From: Bacillus sp. V5-8f
GTDB lineage: Bacteria > Bacillota > Bacilli > Bacillales > DSM-1321
Direction of reading: 5' to 3'
NCBI RefSeq assembly: GCF_002863565.1
Contig: NZ_PGUW01000005.1
Coordinates: 372,001-436,000, forward strand
Length of the DNA: 64,000 nt
Each line of letters starts with the position of its first letter. Position 1 is the stretch's first letter. The notes under the pieces are model-generated. The model made no database searches. It saw nothing but the letters and a program-made list of their open reading frames with translations, and was not told the origin of the DNA. Shown here piece by piece: positions 35,934 to 58,882 of this stretch. A program made the translations under genes and the position numbers.

Positions 35934-36905
35934 TTATGCCCACCACATTTCGGTTAGCTGCTCTTTAAACAGTGCTCCCTTTAACAAAGAAATAGCCTTT
36001 CCCAATCCTTCATCAATGGAAGCCAGCATATCTTCATGCTCAATAGAAATAACATAGTCATAGCCGACAGCACGAAGAGTGCTCACGATGTCTTTCCAGG
36101 TCTTTTCATCTTGGCCATAACCTACTGACCTAAACGTCCAGGAACGATTTAATACATCACTGTAATGTTTAGTGTCCAATACGCCATTCACACTAATATT
36201 CGCCTTGTCCAAATACGTATCTTTCGCATGGAAATGGAAGATTGCTTCCTCTTTTCCTAGAGCTTTAATGGCTTCCACAGGATTGATTCCTTGCCATAAC
36301 AGGTGGCTCGGATCAAAATTTGCACCAATGGATGGTCCTGCATGTTCTCTCAATTTTAATAACGTTTCAGGGTTATATACGACAAAGCCTGGATGCATTT
36401 CAAAGGCAATTTGCTTAATCCCATGCTGTTCTGCATACTTTGCCTCTTCCTTCCAGTATGGAATGACGACCTCATTCCATTGCCAATCCAAAACCTCTGT
36501 ATATTCAGGAGGCCAAGAGCAAGTCACCCAGTTTGGAAACTTCGCATGGGCATGATCTCCCGGGCATCCTGAAAACCCATTTATAACCGGGATTTCCAAG
36601 CGTTCCGCCAGCAATACAGTCTTCCGCCAGGTTTCATGTGCCGCTTCGGCCACCTTTTTATCCGGATGAAGCGGATTGCCATGATTGCTTAGCCCGCTTA
36701 TGATCATTCCCCTGCTTTCAACGGCTTTTTTGAAGGCCTTTAATTTTTCCGGGCTTTCCAAAAGCTCGTCAGGATTACAATGGCTGTTTCCTGGATAATT
36801 ACCAGTACCAAGTTCTACTGCTTCAACACCCATTCCAGCTAGTTTATCTAACATTTCTTCAAAAGGCAGATTTTGATAAAGAACCGTAAAAACCCCTAAT
36901 TTCAT
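35934..36905 (-). CDS. TIM-barrel sugar isomerase/epimerase-family protein (TIM-A, copy 1)
   Basis: A 323-residue xylose-isomerase-like TIM barrel (AP endonuclease 2 family). The start MKLGVFTVLYQNLPFEEMLDKL follows AGGAGGGGTAATC. Probable divalent-metal ligands are the Glu in AFEMHPGF, Asp/His in NFDPSHLLW, His in FHFHAKD and Glu in ISIEHED. The usual length of this subgroup is kept. In keto-sugar pathways such proteins catalyse elimination, hydration or epimerisation of 3-keto-glycosides. It is near-identical in layout to the second copy at 50824-51795, down to the C-terminal EMWWA. It begins 2 nt after Gfo-A1, so the two are co-translated. The exact reaction is inferred. Confidence 0.85.
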   Translation of the reverse strand: MKLGVFTVLYQNLPFEEMLDKLAGMGVEAVELGTGNYPGNSHCNPDELLESPEKLKAFKKAVESRGMIISGLSNHGNPLHPDKKVAEAAHETWRKTVLLAERLEIPVINGFSGCPGDHAHAKFPNWVTCSWPPEYTEVLDWQWNEVVIPYWKEEAKYAEQHGIKQIAFEMHPGFVVYNPETLLKLREHAGPSIGANFDPSHLLWQGINPVEAIKALGKEEAIFHFHAKDTYLDKANISVNGVLDTKHYSDVLNRSWTFRSVGYGQDEKTWKDIVSTLRAVGYDYVISIEHEDMLASIDEGLGKAISLLKGALFKEQLTEMWWA

Positions 36906-36907
36906 GA

Positions 36908-38080
36908 TTACCCCTCCTGGTGTCTCCGAACTTTGACCCATTTTTGTTGTTCGTGGCTTTCTAAGATGGCATCTGTAATGCACATGGATACATGCCCATC
37001 GGCAAAAGTAGCAAAATTCGCCTCATCATGTTCGGGATCTTTGCCATCGCGAATGAATGAGTAGAAATTTAACATGACATTTTTCAAGGCATCAGGCCAT
37101 CCTTCATTGTGTCCCCCCGGATGGTGGATTGCACTTTGTGCTTCAGGCAAGAATAATGCTGGATCAGCAAGAAGGGTTTCATTTGGTTTATCACGATGTC
37201 CGATCCATAGTTGAGCTGGTTCCTCCTGATTCCAGAAAGCCGAGCTTTTGCTTCCATTGATTTCAAAGCTTAGTCTGTTTTTGCGTCCAGCACTTACCTG
37301 GGAAACCGTAAACACACCTCTTGAGCCATCTTCAAAACGGACAAGAACCGATGCATAATCTTCTGTGTTAATCTCAACATCTTCATATTTCATGGCCTCG
37401 TCTTTTTGAGCACCAAACGTCGATACATTTGATTTTGGTTTCTTTCTCACTGGAAGGACTGTCACTAAATCAGCGAAAACTTCGACAATTTTTTTGCCAG
37501 TTACATATTGGACCGTGTCACACCAGTGTGAACCGATATCCGCAATTGCGCGTGATTTTCCACCTGCTTCAGGAGCCAACCGCCAGTTAAAGTCAGTCTC
37601 ATATAAAAGCCAATCCTGTAAATAACTGCCGTGCACCAGATTTACCTTCCCTAGCTGATCATGCTTGACCATAGCGGTTAACTGTTTGACAATCGGGTAT
37701 TGGCGGTAATTAAAATTTACGCCATGCACAACCTTGTGTTCCTTTGCTAATGCAAGGAGCTCTGCAGATTCTTCACTGGACACAGCCAGCGGTTTTTCAG
37801 ACAGCACATGCTTTCCGGCTAAAATGGCTTCTTTATTGATCTCAAAATGAAGGTTATTCGGTGTACAATTGTGCACCACTTGTATTTCATCATCCTGAAG
37901 CATCTCGCGATAATCAGCATAGGCTTTAGGAATGCCCAGTTCAGCTGCCTTTTCTTTAGCAGCCTCCAGGCTGGACGCTGCCAGCCCGACAACTTCCACA
38001 AATCCAAGCCTTCTTATGGCTTCAATATGGGTAGGCCCTATAAAACCGGTTCCAATTACACCAACTTTAATTTTTTCCAT
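36908..38080 (-). CDS. Gfo/Idh/MocA-family oxidoreductase (Gfo-A, copy 1)
   Basis: A 390-residue NAD(P)-dependent sugar dehydrogenase. The N-terminal Rossmann fold shows GVIGTGFIGPTHIEAIRRL (dinucleotide motif, about 7-25) and the family SEKPLA (Lys-Pro catalytic/coenzyme motif, about 94-99). The C-terminal alpha/beta domain holds the substrate pocket, with DIGSHWCDTVQYVTG carrying the conserved Asp/His. Proteins of this type oxidise a ring hydroxyl of sugars or inositols to a ketone. It follows AAGGAGGACAAGGACC and sits between Gfo-B1 and TIM-A1. A close paralogue is at 51799-52968. I cannot tell which carbon is oxidised. Confidence 0.88.
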   Translation of the reverse strand: MEKIKVGVIGTGFIGPTHIEAIRRLGFVEVVGLAASSLEAAKEKAAELGIPKAYADYREMLQDDEIQVVHNCTPNNLHFEINKEAILAGKHVLSEKPLAVSSEESAELLALAKEHKVVHGVNFNYRQYPIVKQLTAMVKHDQLGKVNLVHGSYLQDWLLYETDFNWRLAPEAGGKSRAIADIGSHWCDTVQYVTGKKIVEVFADLVTVLPVRKKPKSNVSTFGAQKDEAMKYEDVEINTEDYASVLVRFEDGSRGVFTVSQVSAGRKNRLSFEINGSKSSAFWNQEEPAQLWIGHRDKPNETLLADPALFLPEAQSAIHHPGGHNEGWPDALKNVMLNFYSFIRDGKDPEHDEANFATFADGHVSMCITDAILESHEQQKWVKVRRHQEG

Positions 38081-38159
38081 GGTCCTTGTCCTCCTTAATT
38101 AAACGACGGTTTTGTTATTTAACAAAGATGTTATTAGCCGCAGGAGCTTTTTTAATAAA

Positions 38160-38183
38160 GGCTGCCGCAACAGGGCAGCAGCC
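38160..38183 (-). terminator. Intra-operon hairpin between Gfo-B1 and Gfo-A1
   Basis: GGCTGC (38160-38165) pairs with GCAGCC (38178-38183), followed on the minus strand by TTTATT. Likely a partial terminator. In copy 2 the ABC genes occupy exactly this junction. Confidence 0.55.
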
Positions 38184-38207
38184 GTTAGAATAATAAACGT
38201 TAACGGA

Positions 38208-39392
38208 TTATTTTTTTTCTAAATCGTTAATATTTACCCATTGGCCTTTTTCGGCTGATTCAAGAATCGCATCAGCAATAAGCTCAATACGGTATCCGTC
38301 ATTAAAGTTTGGTGAAAATTGTGTTTCTTCTTCTGCGATTGCTTTAAAGAAGTCATGCGTTTCAATTATTTTTGTTTCTCCATATCCGATACCTAATGCA
38401 GGGATTGGCCATAAAGCTTCTCCGTATGGAGTAGCAGGACCTGTATAAACGGTTCTGAAGCCCTTCGCATCACTTGGATCATCCGCAAAGCTTACTTGCA
38501 GTTCATCACGGCGCTCATAGTTGAAGTATAAGGATCCTTTTTCACCATGGATTTCAAAAGTCAGGAAGTTATTGCGTCCCCAGGCATTACGTGTTGCTTC
38601 GATGGATCCGATGGCACCGTTTTCAAACTTGACCATTGTAATGAACTCATCATCTACATCGACTTTGCCTTTCGGTACATCCACTTCACTGCTTTTCACC
38701 GTACCGAGCTTATCAATGCCGCCTGTTTGTAATGGTCTTTCCGGAATCCAAGTTCTAGTCATGGCATTTACATCTGAAATTTCACCAACCAGGTAGCGTG
38801 CAAAATCTACAACGTGTGTTCCGATATCGCCTAGTGCGCCTGAACCTGCAATTTTCTTTTGAAAACGCCAAGATAACGGTGAATTTGGATCAGCAGACCA
38901 ATCTTGCAGATATGTTCCACGGAAGCTGAGGATTTTTCCGATTCTTCCTTCTTCAATGTATTTTTTCGCGAGTGCAACAGCAGGAGTTCTTCTGTAGTTG
39001 AAAGCAACCGCATGTTTAACGCCTGCAGCCTTAACTGCCTCTAACATTTCTTTCGCTTCGGCAGCGCCCAGTGCCAACGGCTTTTCAGAAATGATGTGCT
39101 TGCCTGCTTTTGCCGCAGCAATCGCAATCTCGGCATGGGTATTGTTTGGAGTTACAATATCAATAACATCGATTTCAGGATTGTTTACTACCTCTCTCCA
39201 ATCAGTGGAGTAATGTTCAAATCCCAATCTTGCCGCTGCATCCTTGGCTAATTCTTCTTTTACATCCACTACTGTGTGGCGGTGCGGGATAGCAGGAGCA
39301 GGCCAAAAGAACATTGGCATTGCTGCGTATGCAAGTGAGTGTGCCTTTCCCATGAATCCTCCGCCAATCATACCTACGTTTAATTTTTTCAT
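38208..39392 (-). CDS. Gfo/Idh/MocA-family oxidoreductase, levoglucosan-dehydrogenase-like (Gfo-B, copy 1)
   Basis: A 394-residue NAD-dependent dehydrogenase. ATG 39392 follows GAGGGGGATATCGAAA and starts MKKLNVGMIGGGFMGKAH (Rossmann motif). Then come TPNNTHAEIAI, SEKPLAL (about 98-104) and FNYRRTPAVALAKK. SGALGDIGTHVVDFARYLVG supplies the catalytic Asp/His, and later RNAWGRNNFLTFEIHG and IPALGIGYGE appear. To my recollection this pattern is close to levoglucosan dehydrogenase (LgdA) of actinobacteria, which oxidises C3 of 1,6-anhydroglucose. That comparison is from memory and should be treated as a lead. The second copy is at 55626-56816. It is transcribed after TIM-B1. Confidence 0.85.
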   Translation of the reverse strand: MKKLNVGMIGGGFMGKAHSLAYAAMPMFFWPAPAIPHRHTVVDVKEELAKDAAARLGFEHYSTDWREVVNNPEIDVIDIVTPNNTHAEIAIAAAKAGKHIISEKPLALGAAEAKEMLEAVKAAGVKHAVAFNYRRTPAVALAKKYIEEGRIGKILSFRGTYLQDWSADPNSPLSWRFQKKIAGSGALGDIGTHVVDFARYLVGEISDVNAMTRTWIPERPLQTGGIDKLGTVKSSEVDVPKGKVDVDDEFITMVKFENGAIGSIEATRNAWGRNNFLTFEIHGEKGSLYFNYERRDELQVSFADDPSDAKGFRTVYTGPATPYGEALWPIPALGIGYGETKIIETHDFFKAIAEEETQFSPNFNDGYRIELIADAILESAEKGQWVNINDLEKK

Positions 39393-39500
39393 TTTCGATA
39401 TCCCCCTCAAATTGAATGGATGTTCAAAGTGTTTTTTAATCGCTTACAAAACTAGTAAGCTTTATTTCTCATATTTTAAACCGCTTCTAAATTCTTTAAA

Positions 39501-40310
39501 TTATTTCTCAAATTTTAATAAAAACTTACGGCTAATTTCTGCACCTTTTTTAGGATCTGCATAGCTGTCAAGTTCCACAGTGATCCAATCATCATAATTG
39601 TTTTCGTTTAACAGCCTTACCATTTCATCGAATTTTTGGTGCCCTTCACCTAATGGCAAGAATTCACCATTTGCAAAGTCCTTAAAGTGGATATATTTAA
39701 TCCGGTCTGCGTACTTTTTAACAACCTCTACAGGATCTCCGCCACCTGCTTCGATATGAGCCGTATCCGGGCATAAATTAATAGTTGTCAAAGCCATAAG
39801 CTTGTCCAGTTGGTCCGGAGCTTCCACATTCGTACCTAAATGCGGATGATAGCTTGGAATGAGATTATTTTTTTCTGCAATCGCTGCCACTTTATCGAGG
39901 GCGTTGGCTAAATCAGCGTAATCGCTTTCTTTAATGCCATTGGCACGTACTGCCCCTCCGCCAATAACCAGGTGTCTCGCGCCTAATTCAGAAGCTAGAG
40001 CCGCCACTTCTTCAATTTTTTGCAATTCTTCTACTAAAACGTCTGGGTAGATGAAATTCCCCCCGGTGTAAACACCGATGAACTCTAAAGAATATTGCTC
40101 AAGCAAAGATTTAAATTCTTCTTTTCTATCTTTGTATTGCATCAAGTTTCCATCGAATAGTTCAAACCCTGTGTACCCTGCTTCTGAGATATCTTTTAAG
40201 GCTTCTTCTGTTGAGCCATTCGCAAGATAATAAAGATCCTTTATTGAAGTTACCCCGGCTGGATGCCCTACAACACCGCCCCAAGTATTGGTTTGATAGC
40301 CAAATTTCAT
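39501..40310 (-). CDS. TIM-barrel sugar isomerase/epimerase-family protein (TIM-B, copy 1)
   Basis: A 269-residue IolE/IolH-like TIM barrel. The start MKFGYQTNTWGGVVGHPAG follows CGGAGGAGCAGAACA. Probable metal ligands are the Glu in GFELFDGN, the His in SYHPHLGTN, Asp/His in CPDTAHIEAGG, His in IKYIHFKD and Glu in ITVELDSY. Members act as isomerases, epimerases, dehydratases or keto-glycoside lyases on sugars. It is the first gene of copy 1 of the four-gene block. The region upstream has three TGTAATCGATTACA operators. The paralogue at 58076-58882 is the first gene of copy 2 in the same relative position. Confidence 0.87.
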   Translation of the reverse strand: MKFGYQTNTWGGVVGHPAGVTSIKDLYYLANGSTEEALKDISEAGYTGFELFDGNLMQYKDRKEEFKSLLEQYSLEFIGVYTGGNFIYPDVLVEELQKIEEVAALASELGARHLVIGGGAVRANGIKESDYADLANALDKVAAIAEKNNLIPSYHPHLGTNVEAPDQLDKLMALTTINLCPDTAHIEAGGGDPVEVVKKYADRIKYIHFKDFANGEFLPLGEGHQKFDEMVRLLNENNYDDWITVELDSYADPKKGAEISRKFLLKFEK

Positions 40311-40392: not shown

Positions 40393-40406
40393 TGTAATCG
40401 ATTACA
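40393..40406 (-). promoter_or_regulatory. LacI-type operator, TIM-B1 operon, proximal
   Basis: A perfect palindrome TGTAATCGATTACA (extended to 16 bp GTGTAATCGATTACAC). On the minus strand it lies between a TTGCAA and a TACACT, so it may sit inside the promoter. Confidence 0.75.
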
Positions 40407-40467
40407 CAAAATTTGCAACTTTATTTGCTAATTACCCAATTTAGAAAGCTTTTAATCTTCTGTTTAC

Positions 40468-40481
40468 TGTAATCGATTACA
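40468..40481 (-). promoter_or_regulatory. LacI-type operator, TIM-B1 operon, middle
   Basis: TGTAATCGATTACA, perfect palindrome, 75 bp from the proximal copy. Confidence 0.72.
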
Positions 40482-40541
40482 TTGAAGAATAAAAAAACTC
40501 TTATTATTAGGTTGTTTTTATTCTCTTAACTACGATATTAG

Positions 40542-40555
40542 TGTAATCGATTACA
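40542..40555 (-). promoter_or_regulatory. LacI-type operator, TIM-B1 operon, distal
   Basis: TGTAATCGATTACA, perfect palindrome, 74 bp from the middle copy. The even ~75-bp spacing of three sites (about seven helical turns each) suits DNA looping. Confidence 0.72.
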
Positions 40556-40988
40556 TTTTTAATTTCAACTATTTTTAACTATTTTATTTAATTTGTTTCA
40601 TAATTTCGTTCATAGCAGTAAAGAAACTTAATCCTTTGCATTGGCATCCTACTATTGGGCGTGTTGGATCTCCGGTTCAAACGCAAGCTAGAATTCCCCT
40701 GCACTCAAAGTCCCTACCATTGCAGGTTTTTGTATCCTACACGGTGTACATATGGCAATAACTCCTCGATTCTATTAAGCTTATAGACCATGAACATGGT
40801 TTTCTGTCAAACTCCCCCATTTCGAAAAATAACCCGGGCAGTACCTTACTAAATACATGACAAAATAGGACTTTCTGTTATAAAAGGACATAAAAAGGCA
40901 AAGAAATCACTGGGAAGGTTTACTTTTTAAATGAAGGCTATTCCCTTTTTTTAAAAATTCCTAACTTGGCACAAATTATAAGTTTTAT

Positions 40989-41662: not shown

Positions 41663-41682
41663 AAAAGAAGGGAGCAATTGAA

Positions 41683-44044: not shown

Positions 44045-44050
44045 GAAATT

Positions 44051-44437: not shown

Positions 44438-45268
44438 TTATACCTGTGCTGCTAATTCTTTCATATGTTTAATGGATTGTTCCGTAAAATCATCAAAAAT
44501 ATTGCTTTCTCCATGAAGCCCCGATGCTACATATGGATTTGAAACGGCTGGCAAAAATTCCATTGTGATATAACCATTATAATTTTTTTCTTTTAGGAAA
44601 GAAATGACCGGTTTAAAGTCAGTTTGGCCCAGTCCTGCTGCTTCTCTTGTATTATCTGCAATATGAACATGCCCCAAATGAGGAAGAATTTTCGTTAAAA
44701 TCTCAATATTATCGCGTTCTTCTATGCTCATATGGAATAGGTCGGCCATCATCTTTACACTCTCATGGTTGATTTCCTCAACGAACCGCAACGCTAAATT
44801 TAAATTGTTCACAAGATAGGTCTCATAACGATTTAGCGCTTCAATCACAAGGGTGATGTTTTGTTCTTTTGCATATGGTGCAACTTCCTTCACACTTGAA
44901 AGTGCATGATTCCACTCTTGCTCTACACTAGTTTCCGGACTTAGTTTACCTACACAAGTTGGAACCACAATGACTGTGGAAGCATTGAGATTTTTGGCTA
45001 AATCGATACATTTTTTTACATACTGTATAGCATTCTCTCTAATTTTCTCATTTGATGAGGAAAGATCTCTTTCCGGACTATATATTCCACAGATTGAACT
45101 ACATACCAAGCCATACTCGCTTAACAGTTTCTTCGTTTCAGTTAAATCTATGGAATCTGGTTCACCAGCTAATTCCACCCCCTGGTAACCATACTTTTTT
45201 AATCTAATCAAACTATCTTCTAAAGATTCATCACCGAAAATCCACTGTGTTACGCTATATTTAAACAT
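44438..45268 (-). CDS. TIM-barrel sugar isomerase/epimerase-family protein (TIM-C, copy 1)
   Basis: A 276-residue TIM barrel of the xylose-isomerase-like superfamily, start MFKYSVTQWIFGDESLEDSL after AAGGAGTGATTTCT. Likely metal ligands are Glu in TLVIEALNRYE, Asp/His in MMADLFHMSIEE, His in LGHVHIADNTREA and Glu in GYITMEFLP. The order of motifs resembles hydroxypyruvate isomerase/tagatose-epimerase-like proteins. It is related to TIM-C2 (46457-47281): both share the CSSICGIYSPERDLSSS-like segment and the C-terminal FDDFTEQSI/YDQYTEESI. A hairpin lies between it and the zinc dehydrogenase gene. The substrate is unknown. Confidence 0.82.
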   Translation of the reverse strand: MFKYSVTQWIFGDESLEDSLIRLKKYGYQGVELAGEPDSIDLTETKKLLSEYGLVCSSICGIYSPERDLSSSNEKIRENAIQYVKKCIDLAKNLNASTVIVVPTCVGKLSPETSVEQEWNHALSSVKEVAPYAKEQNITLVIEALNRYETYLVNNLNLALRFVEEINHESVKMMADLFHMSIEERDNIEILTKILPHLGHVHIADNTREAAGLGQTDFKPVISFLKEKNYNGYITMEFLPAVSNPYVASGLHGESNIFDDFTEQSIKHMKELAAQV

Positions 45269-45320
45269 AGAAATCACTCCTTATGGTGAACCTATTATTA
45301 TATAACCTGTGTACCAAAGG

Positions 45321-47349: not shown

Positions 47350-47363
47350 TGTAATCGATTACA
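47350..47363 (-). promoter_or_regulatory. LacI-type operator before the TIM-C2 operon
   Basis: Perfect palindrome TGTAATCGATTACA between SBP-1 and TIM-C2. Confidence 0.72.
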
Positions 47364-48596: not shown

Positions 48597-48735
48597 ACTA
48601 AGTCCCTCCAAATTATGTATTGCCTTTCGGATTTCTAATAGCGGATTCACCCATACAATTTGTGATACGTTTTAATTTGACAATTCCCAGTGATGAGCAT
48701 CACCACCTTACATTCTTTTAAAAATTCTACCGATA

Positions 48736-48749
48736 TGTAATCGGTTACA
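48736..48749 (-). promoter_or_regulatory. LacI-type operator before SBP-1
   Basis: TGTAATCGGTTACA, one mismatch from the palindromic operator. It also fits the cre consensus. Confidence 0.6.
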
Positions 48750-48798
48750 AAAATAACAGGAAAATGCCTCCTTTTTCTAGTGATTTCTCATATATTAT

Positions 48799-48812
48799 TG
48801 TAATCGTTTTCA
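48799..48812 (-). promoter_or_regulatory. cre-like site before SBP-1
   Basis: TGTAATCGTTTTCA fits the CcpA cre consensus TGWAANCGNTNWCA fully but is not palindromic like the other operators, so catabolite repression is the likelier role. Confidence 0.5.
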
Positions 48813-50284: not shown

Positions 50285-50416
50285 ATATAGACCCCCTGTT
50301 CTGTTAAATCCCATGTTCTTCCCATTTAATCTTTGTTGAACCCCTATTGTTCTTCCATTATTACTGCCGAATCTGATCTATGTAGCAGGGATCACCCCCT
50401 AAAAAATTTTTGTTTT

Positions 50417-50430
50417 TGCAAACGATTACA
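50417..50430 (-). promoter_or_regulatory. Operator/cre-like site before SBP-2, proximal
   Basis: TGCAAACGATTACA: the right half matches the LacI-type operator exactly and the left half is degenerate. It also resembles a cre. Confidence 0.5.
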
Positions 50431-50662
50431 TTTTTGAGCAAATCAGATATATTGCTAATGACTCGCCAAATATCTTGATAAAGACCACTCTGTTGATTAG
50501 AAGCTTCGATGCTATGTATTTTGGCTCTAAGATTAATATAAGTCTTCCAATCTAGTTAAAAGTATTAAGGGTAAAAATAATACAAAACTAGGACGTACAT
50601 TATCGTCCCCTAAACAGTTCCAACTGTTTACGTATTATTTAGTACTCATTACCTATTTTAAT

Positions 50663-50676
50663 TGTAAACGATTACA
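50663..50676 (-). promoter_or_regulatory. LacI-type operator before SBP-2, distal
   Basis: TGTAAACGATTACA, one base from the perfect palindrome. The 50285-50782 gap otherwise contains no gene. Confidence 0.58.
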
Positions 50677-50823: not shown

Positions 50824-51795
50824 TTAAGCCCACCACATTTCGGACATTTCCTCTTTAAAGAGGATATTTTTTAATAGAGCAATTGCCTTGCTTAATCCCT
50901 CATCAGTAGATGCAAGCATATCTTCATGTTCAATGGACACAACATAGTCATAGCCAACTGCACGAAGGGCACTGATCATATCCTTCCACATTTTTTCGTC
51001 ATGTCCATAACCGACTGATCTAAAGGTCCAGGAACGATCTAAAATTTGGCTGTAATGCTTAGTATCTAGTACTCCATTGATACTTATATTGGCTTTATCC
51101 AGATAAGTGTCTTTCGCATGGAAATGGAAAATCGCCTTCTCACGGCCAAGCTTTTTAATTGCCTCTACTGGATCGATTCCCTGCCAGACCAAATGGCTTG
51201 GGTCAAAATTGGCACCAATGCTTTCCCCAGCCTGTTCGCGAAGTCTCAGTAATGTTTCTGGATTATAAACGACAAATCCAGGATGCATTTCAAAGGCGAT
51301 TTGGTTGATTCCATGTGATTTTGCAAACTGCGCTTCTTCCTTCCAATATGGGATTACCATTTCATTCCACTGCCAATCCAGGATTTCTATATATTCAGGA
51401 GGCCAAGAGCAGGTTACCCAGTTTGGATACTTTGCGTTCTCATGGTCTCCTGGACAGCCAGAAAAACCATTGATGACTGGAACTTCCAATCTTTCAGCCA
51501 ATAATACCGTCTTTCTCCATGTTTCATGAGCAAGGGCTGCAGCCTTTTTATCAGGATGCAATGGATTGCCGTGACAGCTTAAACCGCTGATGCTTATACT
51601 TCTGCTTTCTAGTGCCTTTTGAAACGATTTGATTTTTTCGGGACTTTCAAGTAGTTCATCCGGATTGCAATGGCTGTTACCCGGATAATTTCCTGTTCCT
51701 AATTCTACAGTTTCAACACCCATGCCGCTCAATTTTTCAAGCATCTCCTCAAAAGAGAGATTTTGGTAGAGCGGTGTGAATACACCCAGTTTCAT
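50824..51795 (-). CDS. TIM-barrel sugar isomerase/epimerase-family protein (TIM-A, copy 2)
   Basis: 323 residues, the same length as copy 1 (35934-36905), and near-identical through the core. Shared segments include VELGTGNYPGNSHCNPDELL, VINGFSGCPGDH, AFEMHPGFVVYNPETLL, GANFDPSHL, FHFHAKDTYLDKANIS and the tail EMWWA. All presumed metal ligands are kept. AGGAGGTGTAGTTT precedes the ATG, and the gene starts 3 nt after Gfo-A2. It is the last gene of copy 2 and is followed directly by a terminator, whereas copy 1 continues into the MFS gene. Retention of both copies suggests a dosage benefit or different substrates. Confidence 0.85.
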   Translation of the reverse strand: MKLGVFTPLYQNLSFEEMLEKLSGMGVETVELGTGNYPGNSHCNPDELLESPEKIKSFQKALESRSISISGLSCHGNPLHPDKKAAALAHETWRKTVLLAERLEVPVINGFSGCPGDHENAKYPNWVTCSWPPEYIEILDWQWNEMVIPYWKEEAQFAKSHGINQIAFEMHPGFVVYNPETLLRLREQAGESIGANFDPSHLVWQGIDPVEAIKKLGREKAIFHFHAKDTYLDKANISINGVLDTKHYSQILDRSWTFRSVGYGHDEKMWKDMISALRAVGYDYVVSIEHEDMLASTDEGLSKAIALLKNILFKEEMSEMWWA

Positions 51796-51798
51796 AAA

Positions 51799-52968
51799 CT
51801 ACACCTCCTGATTACTGTAAACCTTTACCCATTTTTGATGGGCGTTGCTTTCAAAAATAGCATCATTAATGCACATGGACACATGTCCATCCTCGAATGT
51901 TGCAAAGTCAGGCTGATCCTTCAATGGATCTTTCCCTTCCCTTATAAACGAGTAGAAATTCAACATCATATTTTTCAGCGCATCAGGCCATCCCTCATTA
52001 TGGCCTCCTGGATGATGAATCGAGCCCCTAGCTTCAGGCGTGAATAAAGCTGGATCCGCTAATAGAACTTCATTCGGCTTATCTCTATGCCCCATCCACA
52101 ATTTTTCCGGTTCCTCTTGATTCCAGAAAGCAGAGCTTTTACTTCCATCCAGCTCAAAGCTGAGACGGTTTTTTCGGCCGGCACTTACCTGGGAAACAGT
52201 AAATACTCCCTTTGTACCATCGTTGAACCGAACCAGAACAGAAGCATAATCCTCAGTTTCAATTGATACATCCTCATATTCTACTTGTTCATTGCCTTGG
52301 GAAAAAGTAGCAACAGTTGTTTTAGGCTTCTTTCTAACAGGCAGCACCGTAGAAAAGTCGGCGAAAACTTCTATGATTTTCTTTCCAGTCACAAACTGGA
52401 CCGTATCACACCAATGGGAGCCTATATCTGCTATTGCCCTTGTATTTCCTCCCTGCTTCGGATCCAGGCGCCAGTTAAAATCCGTTTCGTACATTAACCA
52501 ATCCTGAAGATAACTACCGTGAACAAGGTTTACTCTTCCAAATTCACCATTTTGAACTAACGCTCTTAAATTCCTGATGGACGCATGCTGGCGATAATTG
52601 AAATTTACCGCATGAACAACGTTATGTTTTTTTGCCAATTCAACAAGCTCGGCCGATTCTTTGCTATCCATTGCAAGCGGCTTTTCCGATAAGACATGTT
52701 TACCGGCCAAAATGGCTTCTTTGTTGATCGTGAAATGAAGATGATTCGGTGTACAGTTATGTATTACATTGATTTCACAATCATTCAATAATTCCCGATA
52801 ATCTCCGTAAGCCTTTGGAATATTTAACTCGGATGCTGCCTTTTCAGCTGACTCCCTGCTGCTGCCGGCGATGCCGACAACTTCAACAAAGCCAAGGCGC
52901 CTGATCGCTTCAATGTGAGTAGGCCCAATGAATCCTGTACCGATAATACCCACTTTAATAGTTTCCAT
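51799..52968 (-). CDS. Gfo/Idh/MocA-family oxidoreductase (Gfo-A, copy 2)
   Basis: 389 residues, a close paralogue of 36908-38080. It keeps GIIGTGFIGPTHIEAIRRLGF, NCTPNHLHFTINKEAIL, SEKPLAM, VHGSYLQDWLMYETDFNWRL and DIGSHWCDTVQFVTGKK. Compared with copy 1 the middle region differs (for example NTRAIAD for KSRAIAD, and a shorter linker after KKPKTTVATFSQ), mostly in surface positions. GGTGGGGATACATTC precedes the ATG. A strong terminator hairpin (53016-53050) separates it from the upstream permease gene, so it may also be served by another promoter or by read-through. Confidence 0.87.
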   Translation of the reverse strand: METIKVGIIGTGFIGPTHIEAIRRLGFVEVVGIAGSSRESAEKAASELNIPKAYGDYRELLNDCEINVIHNCTPNHLHFTINKEAILAGKHVLSEKPLAMDSKESAELVELAKKHNVVHAVNFNYRQHASIRNLRALVQNGEFGRVNLVHGSYLQDWLMYETDFNWRLDPKQGGNTRAIADIGSHWCDTVQFVTGKKIIEVFADFSTVLPVRKKPKTTVATFSQGNEQVEYEDVSIETEDYASVLVRFNDGTKGVFTVSQVSAGRKNRLSFELDGSKSSAFWNQEEPEKLWMGHRDKPNEVLLADPALFTPEARGSIHHPGGHNEGWPDALKNMMLNFYSFIREGKDPLKDQPDFATFEDGHVSMCINDAIFESNAHQKWVKVYSNQEV

Positions 52969-53015: not shown

Positions 53016-53050
53016 TGGCTCATTCGTTATATACAGTGACGAATGAGCCA
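53016..53050 (-). terminator. Terminator after the ABC permease, inside the copy-2 block
   Basis: TGGCTCATTCGT (53016-53027) pairs perfectly with 53039-53050 and is followed on the minus strand by CATTTTTTAA. Confidence 0.85.
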
Positions 53051-53089
53051 GCATTATTTTCTGTTTCTAGTTTTTATTTCCCCAGATTG

Positions 53090-54082
53090 TTACTTTTTAA
53101 GCGTTTTTCTTCCAAACGCTACTGCGATGATAATGATAAGTCCTCGTACGATCTGCTGCTGGCTGACGTCAAGTCCCATAATGATTAGACCGTTATTAAT
53201 CACACCCATCATTAAAGATCCGACTACTGTTCCAATTACAGTTCCTACTCCACCCGATAAAGCTGTTCCGCCAAGAATAACGGCAGCAATTACAGATAAC
53301 TCATCGCCTTCCCCAAAGGTAAAGCGGCCTGCGTGCATACGTCCGGCATACAGGATACCTGCGAATCCCGCCATCAATCCTGTACCGATGAATACAAGCA
53401 ATTTAATCTTTCCAGTTTTAATACCAGAGAATTTTGCAGCATTTTCGTTACCACCGGTTGCAAGTGTTTGGCGACCAAATGGTGTTTTGCGAAGAAGGAT
53501 ATGTCCGATTATTGCTACAATAATTGTCCAAATCAGCAAGATTGGAATCGGTCCGATATCCCCGGAACCAAATACGTAGTTAAACGTAGCATCAACGATT
53601 GGTACAGGAGCCGTGTCTGTAATCCACATCGCCAAACCTTTTACAATTCCCATCATACCGAGAGTTACAAGGAACGATGGAATCGATACCTTTGTAATAA
53701 GCAAACCATTGATTAATCCAATTACTAAACCTGTTCCTAAACCAACGACCAATCCGCCAATTAACCCATATCCCGCTTGCAATGCCAAAGCTGCTGTCAA
53801 AGCAGATAGCGCAGTAATGGAACCTACAGAGAGATCGATCTCACCGGTACTTATAACAAAAGTCATAGCAACAGCCATAATCGTGATCATTGCTGACTGA
53901 CGAGCGATATTCAGCATGTTGTTAGTTGTTAAAAACCCATCATCAAATAACATAATTGAGAAGTAAATTAGGACGCCCACAAAAGCAAAGTATACAATGT
54001 AGTTGCGCCATTCAAACGTCTTTCCTGTTTTGTACGTTGTTGTATTTAATGAGTTATTAACCTTAATATCCTTGGATTGCAT
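53090..54082 (-). CDS. Ribose-type sugar ABC transporter permease (RbsC-like)
   Basis: A 330-residue permease of the BPD_transp_2 family with about nine hydrophobic helices. The family motifs are MTFVISTGEIDLSVGSITALSA (about 80-100) and the region GGNENAAKFSGIKTGKIKLLVFIGTGLMAGFAGILYAGRM. The C-terminal LGGTALSGGVGTVIGTVVGSLMMGVINNGL is also typical. It forms the membrane channel as a homodimer with the ATPase encoded upstream, whose gene end overlaps its start by 20 nt. GAGGAGGAGCTTCAAC precedes the ATG. With SBP-1, -2 and -3 it forms the only ribose-type transporter in the window. Confidence 0.9.
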   Translation of the reverse strand: MQSKDIKVNNSLNTTTYKTGKTFEWRNYIVYFAFVGVLIYFSIMLFDDGFLTTNNMLNIARQSAMITIMAVAMTFVISTGEIDLSVGSITALSALTAALALQAGYGLIGGLVVGLGTGLVIGLINGLLITKVSIPSFLVTLGMMGIVKGLAMWITDTAPVPIVDATFNYVFGSGDIGPIPILLIWTIIVAIIGHILLRKTPFGRQTLATGGNENAAKFSGIKTGKIKLLVFIGTGLMAGFAGILYAGRMHAGRFTFGEGDELSVIAAVILGGTALSGGVGTVIGTVVGSLMMGVINNGLIIMGLDVSQQQIVRGLIIIIAVAFGRKTLKK

Positions 54083-55562
54083 GTTGAAGCTCCTCCTCCG
54101 AATTAATCTCCCTTCTCTTCAGTTCCTTCACCACTTTCCCTTCATGGAGGACGATGACTCTGTCACTTACCGCCAATAGTTCAGGGAGTTCGGATGAAAT
54201 AACTATCACTGCTTTACCGCTATCAGCAAGCTCACGCACAATATCGAGGATTTCTGTCTTTGCCCCGATATCCACCCCAATGGTAGGTTCATCTAATATA
54301 AGAACTTCAGGGTCATTGGCCAGCCATTTTGCCAGCACAATCTTTTGCTGATTACCGCCTGATAACAGCCCGGCAGTTTTGAAGATATTATCGGTTTTAA
54401 TTTTTAACTTTTGTACTAGCTGATTGGACAGCTCGTTGGCCTTGCGCTCATCGACAAAGAGCCCTTTTTTCACTTTTGAGAGGATAGGTAGAATCATATT
54501 ATCCTTTACGCTGTGTTCAAGGACCAATCCCTGCATCCTTCTGTCCTCAGGTATAAGAGCAAGTCCTGCCTTTACGGCATCCTCAGGGTTTTTGATGGTA
54601 CGTTTTACTCCATTTATTTCGATATCACCACTGTCCATGGAGTCAATTCCAAAGATGGCTCGGGCAATCTCTGATCTTCCGCTTCCCATTAAACCGGCAA
54701 AACCAAGAATTTCACCTGGCTGAAGCGTAAAGCTGACACCATTAACCTTTGTACCGGACACTAAATTGTTCACTTTGAGAATAGGCTTTGAGTCTGCAGG
54801 ATAAGAGCGCTCCACCCATTCAAATGCCTTATCCATCTCAGCGCCTACAATGTGCTGGACAACTGTATCCATGCTGATATCTTTAATATTTTCAGTAACC
54901 GCGTTTTTCCCGTCACGTAATATCGTAATTCGATCACACACTTCGAAAATTTCATCCATACGGTGTGATATATATATAATCGAAATTCCCTTGCGCTTTA
55001 ACTTCTCGATGAAAGAAAAGAGAACTTCCGTTTCCTTCTTGGTCAATGAGGATGATGGTTCATCCATAATCAGAATCTTTGCTTCTTGGGAAAGCGCTTT
55101 TGCGATTTCGGTCATTTGCCAATATCCTACGCCAAGATCCTGGACAACATCATTTGGGTTGATATCCACTTCCAATTCTTCTAATAAAACCCTTGTCTTT
55201 TTAATGCCTTCTTTATCATTGAGGAGCCCTAAAGAGTTCTTTGATTCTCTTGTCAAATAGATATTTTCTGCCACCGTTAACGTTGGTATTAAACTGAATT
55301 CCTGAAAGATCATGGAGATATAATTATCTCGAGCGTCCTGCATGTTATTTATTTCTACTTTTTTTCCTTCTATGAAAATTTCTCCGCCATCAGCCTGATA
55401 AACTCCTGTTAGCGTTTTCATTAATGTGGACTTTCCAGCGCCATTTCCTCCCATTAAGGCGTGTACCTCACCTTTTTTGACGGAAAAATCAACTGAATCC
55501 AAAACAGTAATCCCATTAAATGCTTTTGATATGTTTTTCATCTCAAGAATAGGCTGTTCCAA
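54063..55562 (-). CDS. Ribose-type sugar ABC transporter ATPase (RbsA-like, two nucleotide-binding domains)
   Basis: A 499-residue protein with two fused ATPase domains, as in RbsA/MglA. Domain 1 has Walker A GGNGAGKST (about 39-47), the region YWQMTEIAKAL in the signature position and Walker B ILIMDEPSSSL. Domain 2 has the degenerate Walker A GLMGSGRSEIARA, signature LSGGNQQK and Walker B VLILDEPTIGVDIGAK. TTG 55562 is the likely start because AAGAAGGTG lies 6 nt upstream. The GTG at 55571 lies within that ribosome site. It sits between Gfo-B2 and the permease, bracketed by hairpins at 55584-55611 and 53016-53050. Confidence 0.9.
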   Translation of the reverse strand: MEQPILEMKNISKAFNGITVLDSVDFSVKKGEVHALMGGNGAGKSTLMKTLTGVYQADGGEIFIEGKKVEINNMQDARDNYISMIFQEFSLIPTLTVAENIYLTRESKNSLGLLNDKEGIKKTRVLLEELEVDINPNDVVQDLGVGYWQMTEIAKALSQEAKILIMDEPSSSLTKKETEVLFSFIEKLKRKGISIIYISHRMDEIFEVCDRITILRDGKNAVTENIKDISMDTVVQHIVGAEMDKAFEWVERSYPADSKPILKVNNLVSGTKVNGVSFTLQPGEILGFAGLMGSGRSEIARAIFGIDSMDSGDIEINGVKRTIKNPEDAVKAGLALIPEDRRMQGLVLEHSVKDNMILPILSKVKKGLFVDERKANELSNQLVQKLKIKTDNIFKTAGLLSGGNQQKIVLAKWLANDPEVLILDEPTIGVDIGAKTEILDIVRELADSGKAVIVISSELPELLAVSDRVIVLHEGKVVKELKRREINSEEELQHAIQGY

Positions 55563-55583
55563 TTCATTCACCTTCTTTTTTAG

Positions 55584-55611
55584 AAAAGGCTACTCGGGGT
55601 GAGCAGCCTTT
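55584..55611 (-). terminator. Hairpin between Gfo-B2 and the ABC ATPase
   Basis: AAAAGGCT..CTC (55584-55595) pairs with GAG..AGCCTTT (55601-55611); the one mismatch is a G-U pair in the minus-strand RNA, and TTTTCT follows. Probably an intra-operon partial terminator. Confidence 0.65.
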
Positions 55612-55625
55612 ATAAAATTGTACAA

Positions 55626-56816
55626 TCACTGTCCTACTTTTACTGCAGAATTATTAATGTTTACCCATTCACCTTTTTCAGCTGATTCAAGGATTGCGTC
55701 TGCAATTAGTTCGATTCGGTATCCATCGTTAAAGTTAGGAGAAACCTGTGTATTCTCAACAATCGCTTTAAAGAAGTCATGGGTTTCAATGATCTTTGTT
55801 TCCCCATAGCCGATACCCAGCGCTGGAATTGGCCATAGCGCTTCACCATAAGGTGTAGCCGGTCCTGTATAGACGGTTCTGAAACCTTTTGCATCACTTG
55901 GATCGTCCGCGAAGGAAACTTGAAGCTCATCACGGTTCTCGTAGTTAAAGAATAAGGAACCTTTCGTGCCATGAATTTCAAAAGTCAGGAAGTTATTGCG
56001 GCCCCATGCATTACGGGTTGCTTCAATGCTTCCAATAGCACCGTTTTCAAATTTAACCAATGTAATGAATTCATCATCAACATCTACTTTTCCTTTTGGT
56101 ACATCCTCATCACTGCTTTTTACAGTTCCCAGCTTGTCAACGCCACCAGTTTGAATTGGTCTTTCCGGAATCCAAGTTCTTGTAACTGCGTTTACATCTG
56201 AAATTTCACCCACAAGATAACGTGCAAAGTCTACAACATGTGTACCGATATCCCCAAGAGCACCTGAACCAGCAATTTTCTTTTGGAAGCGCCAAGAAAG
56301 CGGTGAATTCGGATCTGCAGACCAGTCCTGAAGATATGTTCCACGGAAGTTAAGAATTTGTCCAATTCTTCCTTCTTCAATGTATTTTTTTGCAAGAGCT
56401 ACTGCAGGTGTTCTTCTATAGTTGAAGGCAACCGCATGTTTAACGCCTGCAGCTTGAACCGCCTCAAGCATCTCTTTCGCTTCTTCTGCACCCAACGCCA
56501 ATGGCTTTTCGGAAATAACGTGCTTCCCTGCTTTTGCGGCCGCAATTGCAATTTCCGCATGCGTATTGTTTGGTGTAACGATATCAATAACATCGATTTC
56601 TGGATCGTTAACAACAGCTCTCCAATCAGTAGAATAGTTGTCAAAACCCAATTTTGCAGCAGCGTCTTTTGCCAGCTCCTCTGTTACATCCACTACTGTG
56701 TGGCGGTGCGGAATCGCTGGTGCGGGCCAGAAAAACATTGGCATTGCTGCATATGCAAGAGCATGAGCTTTCCCCATAAATCCTCCGCCAATCATACCTA
56801 CGTTTAGCTTTTTCAT
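55626..56816 (-). CDS. Gfo/Idh/MocA-family oxidoreductase, levoglucosan-dehydrogenase-like (Gfo-B, copy 2)
   Basis: 396 residues and almost the same as copy 1 (38208-39392) along its length: MKKLNVGMIGGGFMGKAHALAYAAMP, DIVTPNNTHAEIAIAAAKAGKH, SEKPLALG, the SWRFQKKIAGSGALGDIGTHVVDF segment, and IPALGIGYGETK. Differences cluster at the C-terminus (EKGEWVNINNSAVKVGQ) and in a few exposed positions. AGGAGGACATTTCAT precedes the ATG. It is the third gene of copy 2, after TIM-B2 and SBP-3. Such close identity points to recent duplication or ongoing gene conversion. Confidence 0.87.
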   Translation of the reverse strand: MKKLNVGMIGGGFMGKAHALAYAAMPMFFWPAPAIPHRHTVVDVTEELAKDAAAKLGFDNYSTDWRAVVNDPEIDVIDIVTPNNTHAEIAIAAAKAGKHVISEKPLALGAEEAKEMLEAVQAAGVKHAVAFNYRRTPAVALAKKYIEEGRIGQILNFRGTYLQDWSADPNSPLSWRFQKKIAGSGALGDIGTHVVDFARYLVGEISDVNAVTRTWIPERPIQTGGVDKLGTVKSSDEDVPKGKVDVDDEFITLVKFENGAIGSIEATRNAWGRNNFLTFEIHGTKGSLFFNYENRDELQVSFADDPSDAKGFRTVYTGPATPYGEALWPIPALGIGYGETKIIETHDFFKAIVENTQVSPNFNDGYRIELIADAILESAEKGEWVNINNSAVKVGQ

Positions 56817-56859
56817 ATGAAATGTCCTCCTACAATTAGATTATTAGTTTTTGAATTTA

Positions 56860-58035
56860 CTAATTTATTGCTTTTTGAATGGTATCAGGCGCATCCTGCC
56901 TGTACACCAGCTGCCACGATTTCAGAACATTGTCCTTTGTAACACTTAACGATGGCACAGCTACATACTCTGGAGCTTGTTTGCCTACTAAAGCGTATCC
57001 AGCTAAGATGGCTTCTGAAACACCCTGATCATAAGGCAATTGTGCACCAAGGCCCTTCACGACGCCGCCAATCGCAGTCTCTAATGCCACATTTGTTCCT
57101 AAATCTATGGTTGTGATAACCAAATCTTCCCTGTCAAAAATCCTTGCTGCAGCCAACACACCCTCCGCCGGTACATCCCATACTGAGAAGATTCCGTCTA
57201 AATCCGGGTTCCTTGTAAGCATGCCGGAAGCTACCAGTTCAGTTTTGTTAGGATCGGTGATTCCACCACGGGCAACAATTTTGATATGTGGATATTTTTC
57301 TTTGATTCTTTTTTCAAACGCTTCTGTCCGCTGTTTCGTTACGAAGAAATCAGCTGCATGAAAGATAACGCCTACCTTTCCTTTTTCACCCAGCTTTTTG
57401 GCCATGATATCCGCTGCTGCGACCCCGTTCCCATAATTGTCAGCCGAGACAACGCTTATATAATCCTTGCCAGCTTTCAAACCAGAAGGCGGGTTATCCA
57501 TAAATACCAGCTTGATTCCTTTCTTTGCAGCCCGTTTGTACGCATCTGCAGTCGAAACAGGGTCTACTGGAATGCTTACGATTATATCAGGGGACTTAGC
57601 CATAACAGTTTCTATATCCGAAACCTGCTTTTCAACCTTGAATTGGGCATCTGTCACAGCTATTACTTTTATCCCCATCGTTTTAAATGTTGCTTTCAAA
57701 CCATTGATTTGTGCGTTGGACCAGTCATTCCCGGCATAATGCATGACAATTGCGGCTGTATATTTTCCTGCTTTGATCTTTTTAAGATCTTCCTTAGTAA
57801 GTTTCAAAGTTTTGGCAGATACAGCTTCTTCTCCATTTGGACCTTTACTTTGAATTTTTTGTCCGTCAGGAATCTCCGGGTTAATCGTAATGGAACCGGA
57901 GCTGTCCGTTTTTTGTACAGTAACTGGGCTTGTCTTGCTATTATCCGCCTCGGAGCCCTGGTCTTGTACACATCCCGAAAGCATTAAACCACTAGCGAGA
58001 AGAGCAATTGATGTCATTGATATCAGCTTTTTCAT
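56860..58035 (-). CDS. Sugar ABC transporter substrate-binding lipoprotein, SBP-3
   Basis: A 391-residue lipoprotein, paralogue of SBP-1 and SBP-2. The signal sequence has lipobox LMLSGCV; GAGGGGCTTAAA precedes the ATG. Shared segments are ITINPEIPDGQ, KGPNGEEAVSAKTLKL, AIVMHYAGNDWSNAQINGLKATF, SPDIIVSIPVDPVSTADAY and VSVTKDNVLKSW-like endings. It is richer in lysine in exposed positions than SBP-2. Unlike the other two it lies inside the copy-2 operon, between TIM-B2 and Gfo-B2, close to the ATPase and permease. It is therefore the most likely cognate binding protein of that transporter. Confidence 0.88.
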   Translation of the reverse strand: MKKLISMTSIALLASGLMLSGCVQDQGSEADNSKTSPVTVQKTDSSGSITINPEIPDGQKIQSKGPNGEEAVSAKTLKLTKEDLKKIKAGKYTAAIVMHYAGNDWSNAQINGLKATFKTMGIKVIAVTDAQFKVEKQVSDIETVMAKSPDIIVSIPVDPVSTADAYKRAAKKGIKLVFMDNPPSGLKAGKDYISVVSADNYGNGVAAADIMAKKLGEKGKVGVIFHAADFFVTKQRTEAFEKRIKEKYPHIKIVARGGITDPNKTELVASGMLTRNPDLDGIFSVWDVPAEGVLAAARIFDREDLVITTIDLGTNVALETAIGGVVKGLGAQLPYDQGVSEAILAGYALVGKQAPEYVAVPSLSVTKDNVLKSWQLVYRQDAPDTIQKAIN

Positions 58036-58075
58036 TTTAAGCCCCTCTTATTTCTGTAATAAATTCAACCTGTAA

Positions 58076-58882
58076 TTATTCGAATTGTGACAGGTATTTG
58101 CGGCTGATCTCAGCACCCTTTTTCGGATTTTCGTAGCTGTCTAATTCTACGGTGATCCAGCCATCAAAGCCTGATTCATTTAAGATTTGGATCATTTCAT
58201 CAAACTTTTGATGCCCAGCTCCCAAAGGAAGGAACTCACCGTCTTGATAGTCTTTTAGATGAACATATTTGATTCGGTCAATGTATTTTCTAATTACTTC
58301 TACTGGATCTCCGCCGCCAGCCTCAATATGTGCAGTATCAGGCACTAGATTAATAGATGTTAGTGGCATTAATTGATCCAGCTGTTCAGGTGATTCAACA
58401 TTCGTCCCTAAATGAGGGTGGTAACTTGGAATTAAATTGTATTTTTCAGCGATCTTAACTACCTCGTTTAAAGCGTCGCCCAAATCCTTGTAATCGCTTT
58501 CTAATATGCCATTGGCACGGACTGCTCCTCCACCGACAACAAGATGCTGTGCCCCAAGTTCAGAGGCCAGAGCAGCTACCTCTTCTATTTTTATAAGCTC
58601 TTCTTTTAGGATATCAGGGAAAATAAAGTTTCCTCCTGTATATACTCCAATGAATTCAAGAGAGGTTTCTTCCAACAGAGCCTTAAATTCGTCTTTTTTC
58701 TCTTTATATTGCATTAAATTCCCATCAAATATTTCAAAGCCTTTGTAACCGGCTGCACTTATGTCCCGTAATGCTTCTTCCGTTGAACCGTTAGCAAGGT
58801 AGTATAGATCTTTCACCGAAGTAACGCCAGCTGGGTGTCCGACTACTCCTCCCCAAGTATTGGTTTGGTATCCTAATTTCAT
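58076..58882 (-). CDS. TIM-barrel sugar isomerase/epimerase-family protein (TIM-B, copy 2)
   Basis: 268 residues, close paralogue of copy 1 (39501-40310). It shares MKLGYQTNTWGGVVGHPAGVTS, LKDISEAGY/RDISAAGY, FIGVYTGGNFI, VGGGAVRANGI, SYHPHLGTNVE, PDTAHIEAGGGDPVEV and the end GAEISRKYL. The same presumed metal ligands are kept. GGAGGGAATGCAAG precedes the ATG. It is the first gene of the copy-2 operon, with a perfect TGTAATCGATTACA operator about 100 bp upstream. It is preceded by the LacI-type regulator gene in the same direction. Confidence 0.87.
   Translation of the reverse strand: MKLGYQTNTWGGVVGHPAGVTSVKDLYYLANGSTEEALRDISAAGYKGFEIFDGNLMQYKEKKDEFKALLEETSLEFIGVYTGGNFIFPDILKEELIKIEEVAALASELGAQHLVVGGGAVRANGILESDYKDLGDALNEVVKIAEKYNLIPSYHPHLGTNVESPEQLDQLMPLTSINLVPDTAHIEAGGGDPVEVIRKYIDRIKYVHLKDYQDGEFLPLGAGHQKFDEMIQILNESGFDGWITVELDSYENPKKGAEISRKYLSQFE

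Follow-up and report, generated by a model that had tools for sequence, protein, structure and literature searches.

Two lgd-type operons and an adjoining dehydrogenase/TIM-barrel module in a predicted LacI-controlled levoglucosan cluster of Bacillus sp. V5-8f

We analysed a stretch of 64,000 nt, hereafter the window, from the 4.43 Mb genome of Bacillus sp. V5-8f, whose closest named protein matches belong to Peribacillus and to unclassified Bacillus strains. The window holds a predicted sugar-utilisation cluster, the lgd cluster, with all of its genes on the minus strand (Table 1). A block of four genes is found twice, as copy 1 (35934-40310) and copy 2 (50824-58882), and the cluster encodes four Gfo/Idh/MocA proteins and six PF01261 TIM barrels. 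In transcriptional order its upper part reads lacI, lgdB1, SBP1 (SBP, solute-binding protein), lgdA, ATP-binding cassette (ABC) ATPase, ABC permease, lgdC, lgdB2, SBP2, SBP3, TIM-C1, zinc dehydrogenase and TIM-C2, and copy 1 reads lgdB1, lgdA, lgdC, lgdB2 and a major facilitator superfamily (MFS) permease. Between TIM-C2 and copy 1 lie a CDP-alcohol phosphatidyltransferase gene and then, on the other strand, bioB-like and bioY genes. A preliminary description of the stretch had given the same gene content, order, strand and coordinates, with the ABC genes and SBP1 inside copy 2, and had counted the oxidoreductases and barrels correctly; the MFS transporter, the LacI regulator, SBP2, SBP3 and the shared operator are additions to it. 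Our explanation, which we hold with a probability of about 0.8, is a LacI-controlled levoglucosan regulon that combines two lgd operons of different lineage and importer type with a third enzyme module.

The repeated block and its operator

Judged from the encoded proteins, the repeated block TIM-B/Gfo-B/Gfo-A/TIM-A very probably represents lgdB1/lgdA/lgdC/lgdB2, and hence two complete lgd operons. Both Gfo-B proteins pass the NCBIfam levoglucosan dehydrogenase model NF052479, scoring 746.1 (copy 1) and 752.7 bits (copy 2) at an equivalog cut-off of 650. The best solved-structure match of LgdA from copy 2 is 6a3f (641 bits), which groups with 6a3i, the levoglucosan dehydrogenase of Pseudarthrobacter phenanthrenivorans (PMC10066097). 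E103 and H193, in the numbering of the window protein, are invariant in all 12 aligned LgdA sequences including both window copies (LG01 lies outside the alignment), and the same residue numbers are proposed as catalytic for levoglucosan dehydrogenase in that paper. TIM-A (copy 2, 323 aa) matches the uncharacterised structure 2zds first (E 8.6e-16) and, distantly and over residues 150-312, 8ro4 second (E 1.5e-6). The latter is named 2-hydroxy-3-keto-glucal hydratase in the PDB, which is the LgdB2 activity, and TIM-A fits as a PF01261 protein of ~325 residues; TIM-B also matches 8ro4, weakly (E 8.9e-4). The window proteins of 396, 268, 323 and 389 aa fit the 44, 30, 36 and 43 kDa given for LgdA, LgdB1, LgdB2 and LgdC (PMC7676230); LgdB1 and LgdC are predicted from their family, size and position.

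In Bacillus smithii S-2701M, Kuritani (2020) describes the conversion of levoglucosan to glucose by LgdA oxidation, LgdB1 elimination, LgdB2 hydration and LgdC reduction, encoded next to a LacI regulator, a binding protein, an ATPase and two permeases (PMC7676230). Since this set has the same four enzymes beside LacI and ABC importer genes, the combination is not undescribed, as it had appeared in the preliminary description, whose pathway logic of the levoglucosan, 3-keto-sugar type was nevertheless sound. As far as the published account of B. smithii goes (PMC7676230), the window differs from it in having two sets close together, an MFS permease instead of the ABC importer in copy 1, the triad of TIM-C1, zinc dehydrogenase and TIM-C2, two extra binding proteins, and one ABC permease instead of two. 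The same succession of oxidation, elimination, hydration and reduction is seen in the GlycDH/OGE/HYD/Oxo operon of A. tumefaciens and in the puerarin (PUE) operon, and the paper on these systems names the B. smithii operon as analogous (PMC10628242).

By family resemblance to the B. smithii enzymes, LgdA would oxidise C3 of levoglucosan, LgdB1 would eliminate the 1,6-bridge to give 2-hydroxy-3-keto-glucal, LgdB2 would hydrate this to 3-keto-glucose, and LgdC would reduce the latter to glucose. Levoglucosan would enter through the binding-protein-dependent ABC importer in the case of copy 2 and through the MFS permease in that of copy 1. The MFS gene (34516-35811) scores over the cut-off of the RbtT/DalT/CsbX family and is a candidate levoglucosan permease.

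The standard inositol pathway was considered as an overall explanation and rejected, because no protein in the whole genome exceeds the cut-off of the IolE model (TIGR04379, 290 bits). The best score, 118 bits, belongs to lgdB1, and the five matches under the cut-off are all TIM barrels of this cluster. Among 14 control genomes the model found matches in seven, over the cut-off in two.

The units of the cluster share a 14-bp palindrome, TGTAATCGATTACA. Allowing up to three mismatches, it occurs 15 times in the window against 3.4 +/- 1.8 in shuffled sequences. All six perfect sites of the genome lie in this cluster, as do eight of the eleven genome places with at most one mismatch, and a reversed control pattern has zero matches in the genome. 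Sites with 0-2 mismatches stand 62-349 bp upstream of copy 1 (three sites), copy 2, lacI, SBP2 (two), SBP3 (two) and TIM-C1. Several of them overlap a hexamer resembling a promoter -10 element, as the operators of a repressor would; the promoter scan itself is at chance level (44 sigma-70-like sites, 40.7 expected). By this shared LacI-type motif the lgd units, lacI, SBP2, SBP3 and the triad form one predicted regulon, and we infer that the LacI protein of the window binds TGTAATCGATTACA. The same motif precedes both lacI and TIM-C1 in genome G080, discussed below, and no site of the strict pattern is present in the 20 kb examined in each of G272, G200 and G250.

The TIM-C and zinc dehydrogenase triad

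The two TIM-C barrels and the zinc dehydrogenase are a separate module outside the repeated block. The barrels had been taken for one subfamily present twice; because TIM-C1 and TIM-C2 are only 41% identical, they are two different enzymes and not copies. TIM-C1 belongs to the ketose-3-epimerase/YcjR fold class by virtue of the same fold and the E-D-H-E residues at the metal positions.

Among 30 genomes with lgdA, TIM-C1 and TIM-C2 are found in five and the zinc dehydrogenase in the same five, always in the order TIM-C1, zinc dehydrogenase, TIM-C2 and with lgdA within ~8 kb; in G272 the triad begins 37 bp behind lgdB2. Across 397 genomes of the order, 27 have lgdA (E <= 1e-170) and six have TIM-C1 (E <= 1e-85), the latter being four lgdA genomes plus G080 (75% identity) and G201 (50%). 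The distribution could not be widened further, since in a sample of the class TIM-C1 was found at E <= 1e-95 in two of 398 genomes, that of the window and G080. With G201 left out for its 50% identity, the triad occurs in 4/27 genomes with lgdA and 1/370 without it (Fisher test, p 8e-5), or in 3/26 and 1/370 when the window's genome is omitted (p 1e-3); these p values are too small because the genomes are related.

G080 carries the triad in another setting. Its gene row (L136, 9265-18551) consists of lacI, TIM-C1, zinc dehydrogenase, an importer made of SBP_bac_1 and two BPD_transp_1 proteins, TIM-C2, LgdC (55%) and LgdB2 (68%). A search for LgdA in this genome returned its own LgdC as best-scoring match, at 32%, and a search for LgdB1 returned at E <= 1e-6 solely its own TIM-C1, at 29%, with five control genomes positive. 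Therefore the second half of the pathway, LgdC and LgdB2, occurs with the triad instead of LgdA and LgdB1. SBP3 falls into a clade of four (support 100/99) in a tree of 45 binding proteins, and all four members come from triad genomes; of the two other genomes with the triad, G034 is cut off by a contig edge and G080 uses an importer of another type.

Several known systems resemble the triad in part. In Escherichia coli, YcjQ, YcjR and YcjS interconvert D-gulosides and D-glucosides. Like that set, the cluster combines a zinc dehydrogenase, an epimerase-type TIM barrel and a Gfo dehydrogenase, and it has the E-D-H-E metal-position residues in common with YcjR. Unlike it, there are two barrels instead of one, coupled to LgdB2 and LgdC, with identities of 25-28% for the barrels and 29% over 228 residues for the dehydrogenase. 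The NCBIfam families IolM (NF041097) and IolO (NF041099), which we take to be of Thermotoga type, pair a zinc dehydrogenase and an epimerase of the same wider families; the triad differs from them in scoring far under the curated cut-offs, in a genome with no IolE over its cut-off. According to the available portion of Kaur (2023; PMC10066097), LgdA occurs with LgdB1 in 253 of 265 neighbourhoods, LgdB2 is found mainly in Firmicutes, transporters are of the ABC or MFS type, and neighbourhoods without LgdB2 contain barrels named LgdB3 and LgdB4. In that portion these two are named and a triad of zinc dehydrogenase and ketose-3-epimerase barrels is not. In the window, G012, G272 and G007 the triad is accompanied by LgdB2, which speaks against TIM-C being LgdB3 or LgdB4, a comparison made by neighbourhood and not by sequence; TIM-C may be among the two PF01261 clusters that Kaur (2023) leaves unnamed (PMC10066097).

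It is conceivable, if somewhat unlikely, that the triad serves an IolM/IolO pathway as in Thermotoga, for polyols, ketoses or inositol, and is no more than a neighbour of the lgd genes. The zinc dehydrogenase does match IolM (243 bits), the barrels match IolO (190 and 171 bits) and D-psicose 3-epimerase (NF051856; 159 and 136 bits), and among solved structures TIM-C1 is matched best by ketose 3-epimerases. All these scores remain under the curated cut-offs of 450, 300 and 300 bits, however, and the genome-wide result for IolE tells against an inositol route as well. Moreover, the triad shares its operator with lgd, forms one gene row with lgdC and lgdB2 in G080, follows lgdB2 in G272, and has no kinase, hydrolase or aldolase among the annotated genes of its unit.

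A second, distinct pair of zinc dehydrogenase and TIM barrel (28-31% identity to those of the window) was observed beside lgd genes and binding proteins at L024-L026 (G012), L031 (G040), L117 (G007), L123 (G200) and L124 (G250), which suggests repeated recruitment of plug-in modules.

Origin of the two lgd copies

Between the copies, identity is 93% for LgdA, 83% for LgdB2, 80% for LgdB1 and 76% for LgdC. At the DNA level blastn aligns only stretches of genes (71-83%) and a 61-bp operator region (40538-40598 with 60073-60133, 82%), and it finds no alignment in the DNA between Gfo-B and Gfo-A. An lgdA-like gene (E <= 1e-170) is present in 9 of 43 genomes of the family, four of which, including the window's own, have two. 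G016 has orthologues of both copies at 90-97%, G040 of copy 1 only (87-95%), and G007, from another genus, has one set at 79-91%. In trees of 32, 30, 28 and 29 proteins for the four lgd genes, copy 1 groups with copy 1 of G016 and with G040, and copy 2 with copy 2 of G016. Approximately unbiased (AU) tests reject joining the window copies for LgdA (p 1.5e-4), LgdB1 (p 1.2e-10), LgdB2 (p 5.9e-7) and LgdC (p 2.1e-6). At the 0.05 level, three genes (p 0.021, 0.0075 and 0.012) reject a duplication within the lineage of this genus and LgdA (p 0.23) does not. Each copy resembles its orthologues elsewhere more than it resembles the other copy, the outcome named in the preliminary description as refuting a local duplication. 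Because trees, orthologues and AU tests separate the two, the local duplication proposed there had to be abandoned. On phylogenetic grounds the copies are separate old lineages, that is, old paralogous or exchanged operons, now in one region.

Gene order was compared across 59 stretches with 70 lgdA genes, defined by at least 55% identity to those of the window. A scan of genome contigs with LgdA, of which the best 80 of at least 583 relatives were kept, contributed 33 of the 35 annotated loci (L038 and L064 are duplicates of G044 and G034), and the 45 loci below 50% LgdA identity were not used. The stretches are close relatives and best matches and not a random sample, some end early, and redundancy between the two sets may remain (L037 resembles G007). 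Within these bounds, the order lgdA, ATPase, permease is the commonest (35/70, in three phyla). In seven cases lgdA is followed by lgdC, and in all of these copy-1-type loci an MFS gene stands behind lgdC or lgdB2 (six of them via lgdB2). In two, lgdA is followed directly by MFS, and the remaining 26 have another arrangement, several of them at the end of a stretch or before a second lgdA. The full order lgdB1-SBP-lgdA-ATPase-permease-lgdC-lgdB2 is found in Bacillales; Cryobacterium and Agrococcus share it with lgdC and lgdB2 lying farther off, and Alphaproteobacteria have lgdB1-SBP-lgdA-ATPase-permease. Read most simply, copy 2 has retained the common order and copy 1 has been reduced, its ABC importer giving way to an MFS permease, so that the polarity assumed earlier, an ABC importer inserted into one copy, is probably reversed. 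As a separate observation, G148, G346, G423 and G351 (L119, L127, L128 and L138) have two diverged lgdA-like genes (56-67% to those of the window) around one binding protein, with no lgdC in the row.

Three hairpins in the two copies fold as stable RNA (-18.1, -21.3 and -17.8 kcal/mol; z -3.5, -7.0 and -5.7). The ABC pair is indeed bracketed by hairpins, as had been pointed out, but since one follows Gfo-B directly in both copies and another follows the permease, they mark gene ends and not the edges of an insert; a role as borders of a mobile element is rejected on the same ground. No transposase or integrase appears among the Pfam matches of the 30 window proteins scanned, a subset of the open reading frames (ORFs).

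The two operons might have divided their substrates, one taking levoglucosan and the other a different 1,6-anhydrosugar or cellobiosan. Differing importers (MFS and ABC), long separate histories and the use of both levoglucosan and cellobiosan by B. smithii S-2701M (PMC5840395) would agree with this. We consider it unlikely, as of the four proteins LgdA differs least between the copies (93% identity), both LgdA proteins exceed the same cut-off with near-equal scores, and many genomes carry just one of the two types. A recent local tandem duplication followed by insertion of the ABC importer, suggested by identical order and strand, a distance of ~10 kb and 76-93% identity, is rejected as highly improbable by the AU tests on all four proteins, the separate orthologues of both copies in G016 and the interleaved order across phyla.

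Table 1. Features of the lgd cluster in the window
Feature	Position	Strand	Remarks
MFS transporter, RbtT/DalT/CsbX family	34516..35811	-	last gene of lgd copy 1; TIGR00897, 496.9 bits (cut-off 375)
lgdB2 copy 1 (TIM-A), putative 2-hydroxy-3-keto-glucal hydratase	35934..36905	-	323 aa from internal ATG; 83% to copy 2; 95% to G040 orthologue; listed ORF runs to 36983, overlapping lgdC
lgdC copy 1 (Gfo-A), putative glucose 3-dehydrogenase / 3-ketoglucose reductase	36908..38080	-	PF01408/PF22725; second Gfo of the lgd set
RNA hairpin after lgdA copy 1	38160..38183	-	RNA folding
lgdA copy 1 (Gfo-B), predicted levoglucosan 3-dehydrogenase	38208..39392	-	NF052479; listed ORF to 39410
lgdB1 copy 1 (TIM-B), putative 3-keto-levoglucosan beta-eliminase	39501..40310	-	80% to copy 2; directly upstream of lgdA
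Three perfect TGTAATCGATTACA operators	40393..40555	.	83, 158 and 232 bp upstream of copy 1
TIM-C2, ketose-3-epimerase/YcjR-like TIM barrel	44438..45277	-	putative 3-keto-sugar epimerase or eliminase
Zinc-dependent MDR (medium-chain dehydrogenase/reductase) dehydrogenase	45369..46460	-	putative C3 dehydrogenase of another sugar
TIM-C1, ketose-3-epimerase/YcjR-like TIM barrel	46457..47281	-	274 aa as in P0121; listed ORF to 47377 over-extended
Perfect operator upstream of TIM-C triad	47350..47363	.	
SBP3	47424..48650	-	in a clade confined to genomes with the triad
Two operator-like sites upstream of SBP3	48736..48812	.	1 and 2 mismatches
SBP2	49112..50314	-	Peripla_BP_4; 68-69% to SBP1 and SBP3
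Two operator-like sites upstream of SBP2	50417..50676	.	2 and 1 mismatches
lgdB2 copy 2 (TIM-A)	50824..51795	-	PDB matches 2zds, 8ro4
lgdC copy 2 (Gfo-A)	51799..52968	-	
RNA hairpin after ABC permease	53016..53050	-	RNA folding
ABC permease	53090..54082	-	PF02653
ABC ATPase	54063..55571	-	two ABC domains
RNA hairpin after lgdA copy 2	55584..55611	-	RNA folding
lgdA copy 2 (Gfo-B), predicted levoglucosan 3-dehydrogenase	55626..56816	-	NF052479; best PDB match 6a3f
SBP1	56860..58035	-	
lgdB1 copy 2 (TIM-B)	58076..58882	-	
Perfect operator upstream of copy 2	58982..58995	.	
LacI-family regulator	59020..60015	-	likely repressor of all units
Perfect operator upstream of lacI	60077..60090	.	

Some neighbouring features complete the picture. 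The bioY transporter gene and the bioB-like gene (radical SAM and BATS domains) between the lgd units, at 41078-42684 on the opposite strand, have no operator motif in front. Two tandem small genes at 60016-61675 look OsmC-like by eye, the first being confirmed as PF02566. A degenerate CTGATATAT/TATATCAGCC unit with a spacing of partly ~20 bp forms intergenic arrays at 34299-34389 and 43833-44047, on both sides of copy 1.

A possible second entry into the pathway

For the triad itself the chances seem about even that it is an alternative front end, which would oxidise and epimerise (or eliminate) another sugar and feed it into the LgdB2/LgdC branch. The zinc dehydrogenase would oxidise C3 of a sugar that LgdA does not take, and SBP3, perhaps also SBP2, would deliver this sugar to the single ABC importer. 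Ketose-3-epimerase barrels abstract a proton adjacent to a ketone; on a 3-keto pyranose, abstraction by TIM-C would be at C2 or C4. Reprotonation from the opposite face would give epimerisation, and deprotonation at C2 followed by loss of the C1 oxygen or substituent would give elimination to 2-hydroxy-3-keto-glucal. The products would join at LgdB2 and LgdC and end as glucose.

Mannosan and galactosan are the other anhydrosugars of smoke (PMC7676230; PMC5840395). As substrates of the triad they are guesses from this circumstance and from chemistry, and we regard them as doubtful. Because elimination across C1 and C2 erases the configuration at C2, mannosan, the C2 epimer, would reach the same enone as levoglucosan; galactosan, the C4 epimer, would need one epimerisation, and one barrel would correct C4. 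No less doubtful is the broader view in which the triad, together with a binding protein of its own, would serve as an interchangeable front end for epimeric smoke sugars, and the pathway would be modular, with exchangeable parts for oxidation and cleavage and a fixed part for hydration and reduction.

Several observations weigh against our explanation of the cluster. No NCBIfam model was found for LgdB1, LgdB2 or LgdC, and substrate range can shift between close Gfo proteins although LgdA passes its curated cut-off. The best-scoring model for the zinc dehydrogenase is L-threonine 3-dehydrogenase (261 of 458 bits), and the barrels are nearer to Thermotoga IolO and ketose 3-epimerases than to YcjR. 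Importers of the SBP_bac_1 and BPD_transp_1 type are usual for oligosaccharides, and that of G080 would fit a glycoside instead. The triad is present in few genomes (6/397 and 2/398), and as its carriers are related, the statistics on linkage lack independence. In G201, two relatives of the barrels stand next to an importer and an LgdC-like Gfo protein (53%), its only LgdA-like gene (45%) lying elsewhere; taken more widely, the barrel family is therefore not bound to lgdA.

In the open-licence literature searched, with supplements outside its scope, neither a pathway for mannosan or galactosan nor the triad is described. The repeated block is nothing unusual for levoglucosan catabolism, a known pathway; the triad is the part worth following. 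The role of additional TIM-barrel and dehydrogenase genes around lgdA is treated as an open question in the accessible literature, and the triad offers a concrete candidate. If mannosan or galactosan were indeed its substrates, this would explain how soil bacteria use the other anhydrosugars from biomass burning.

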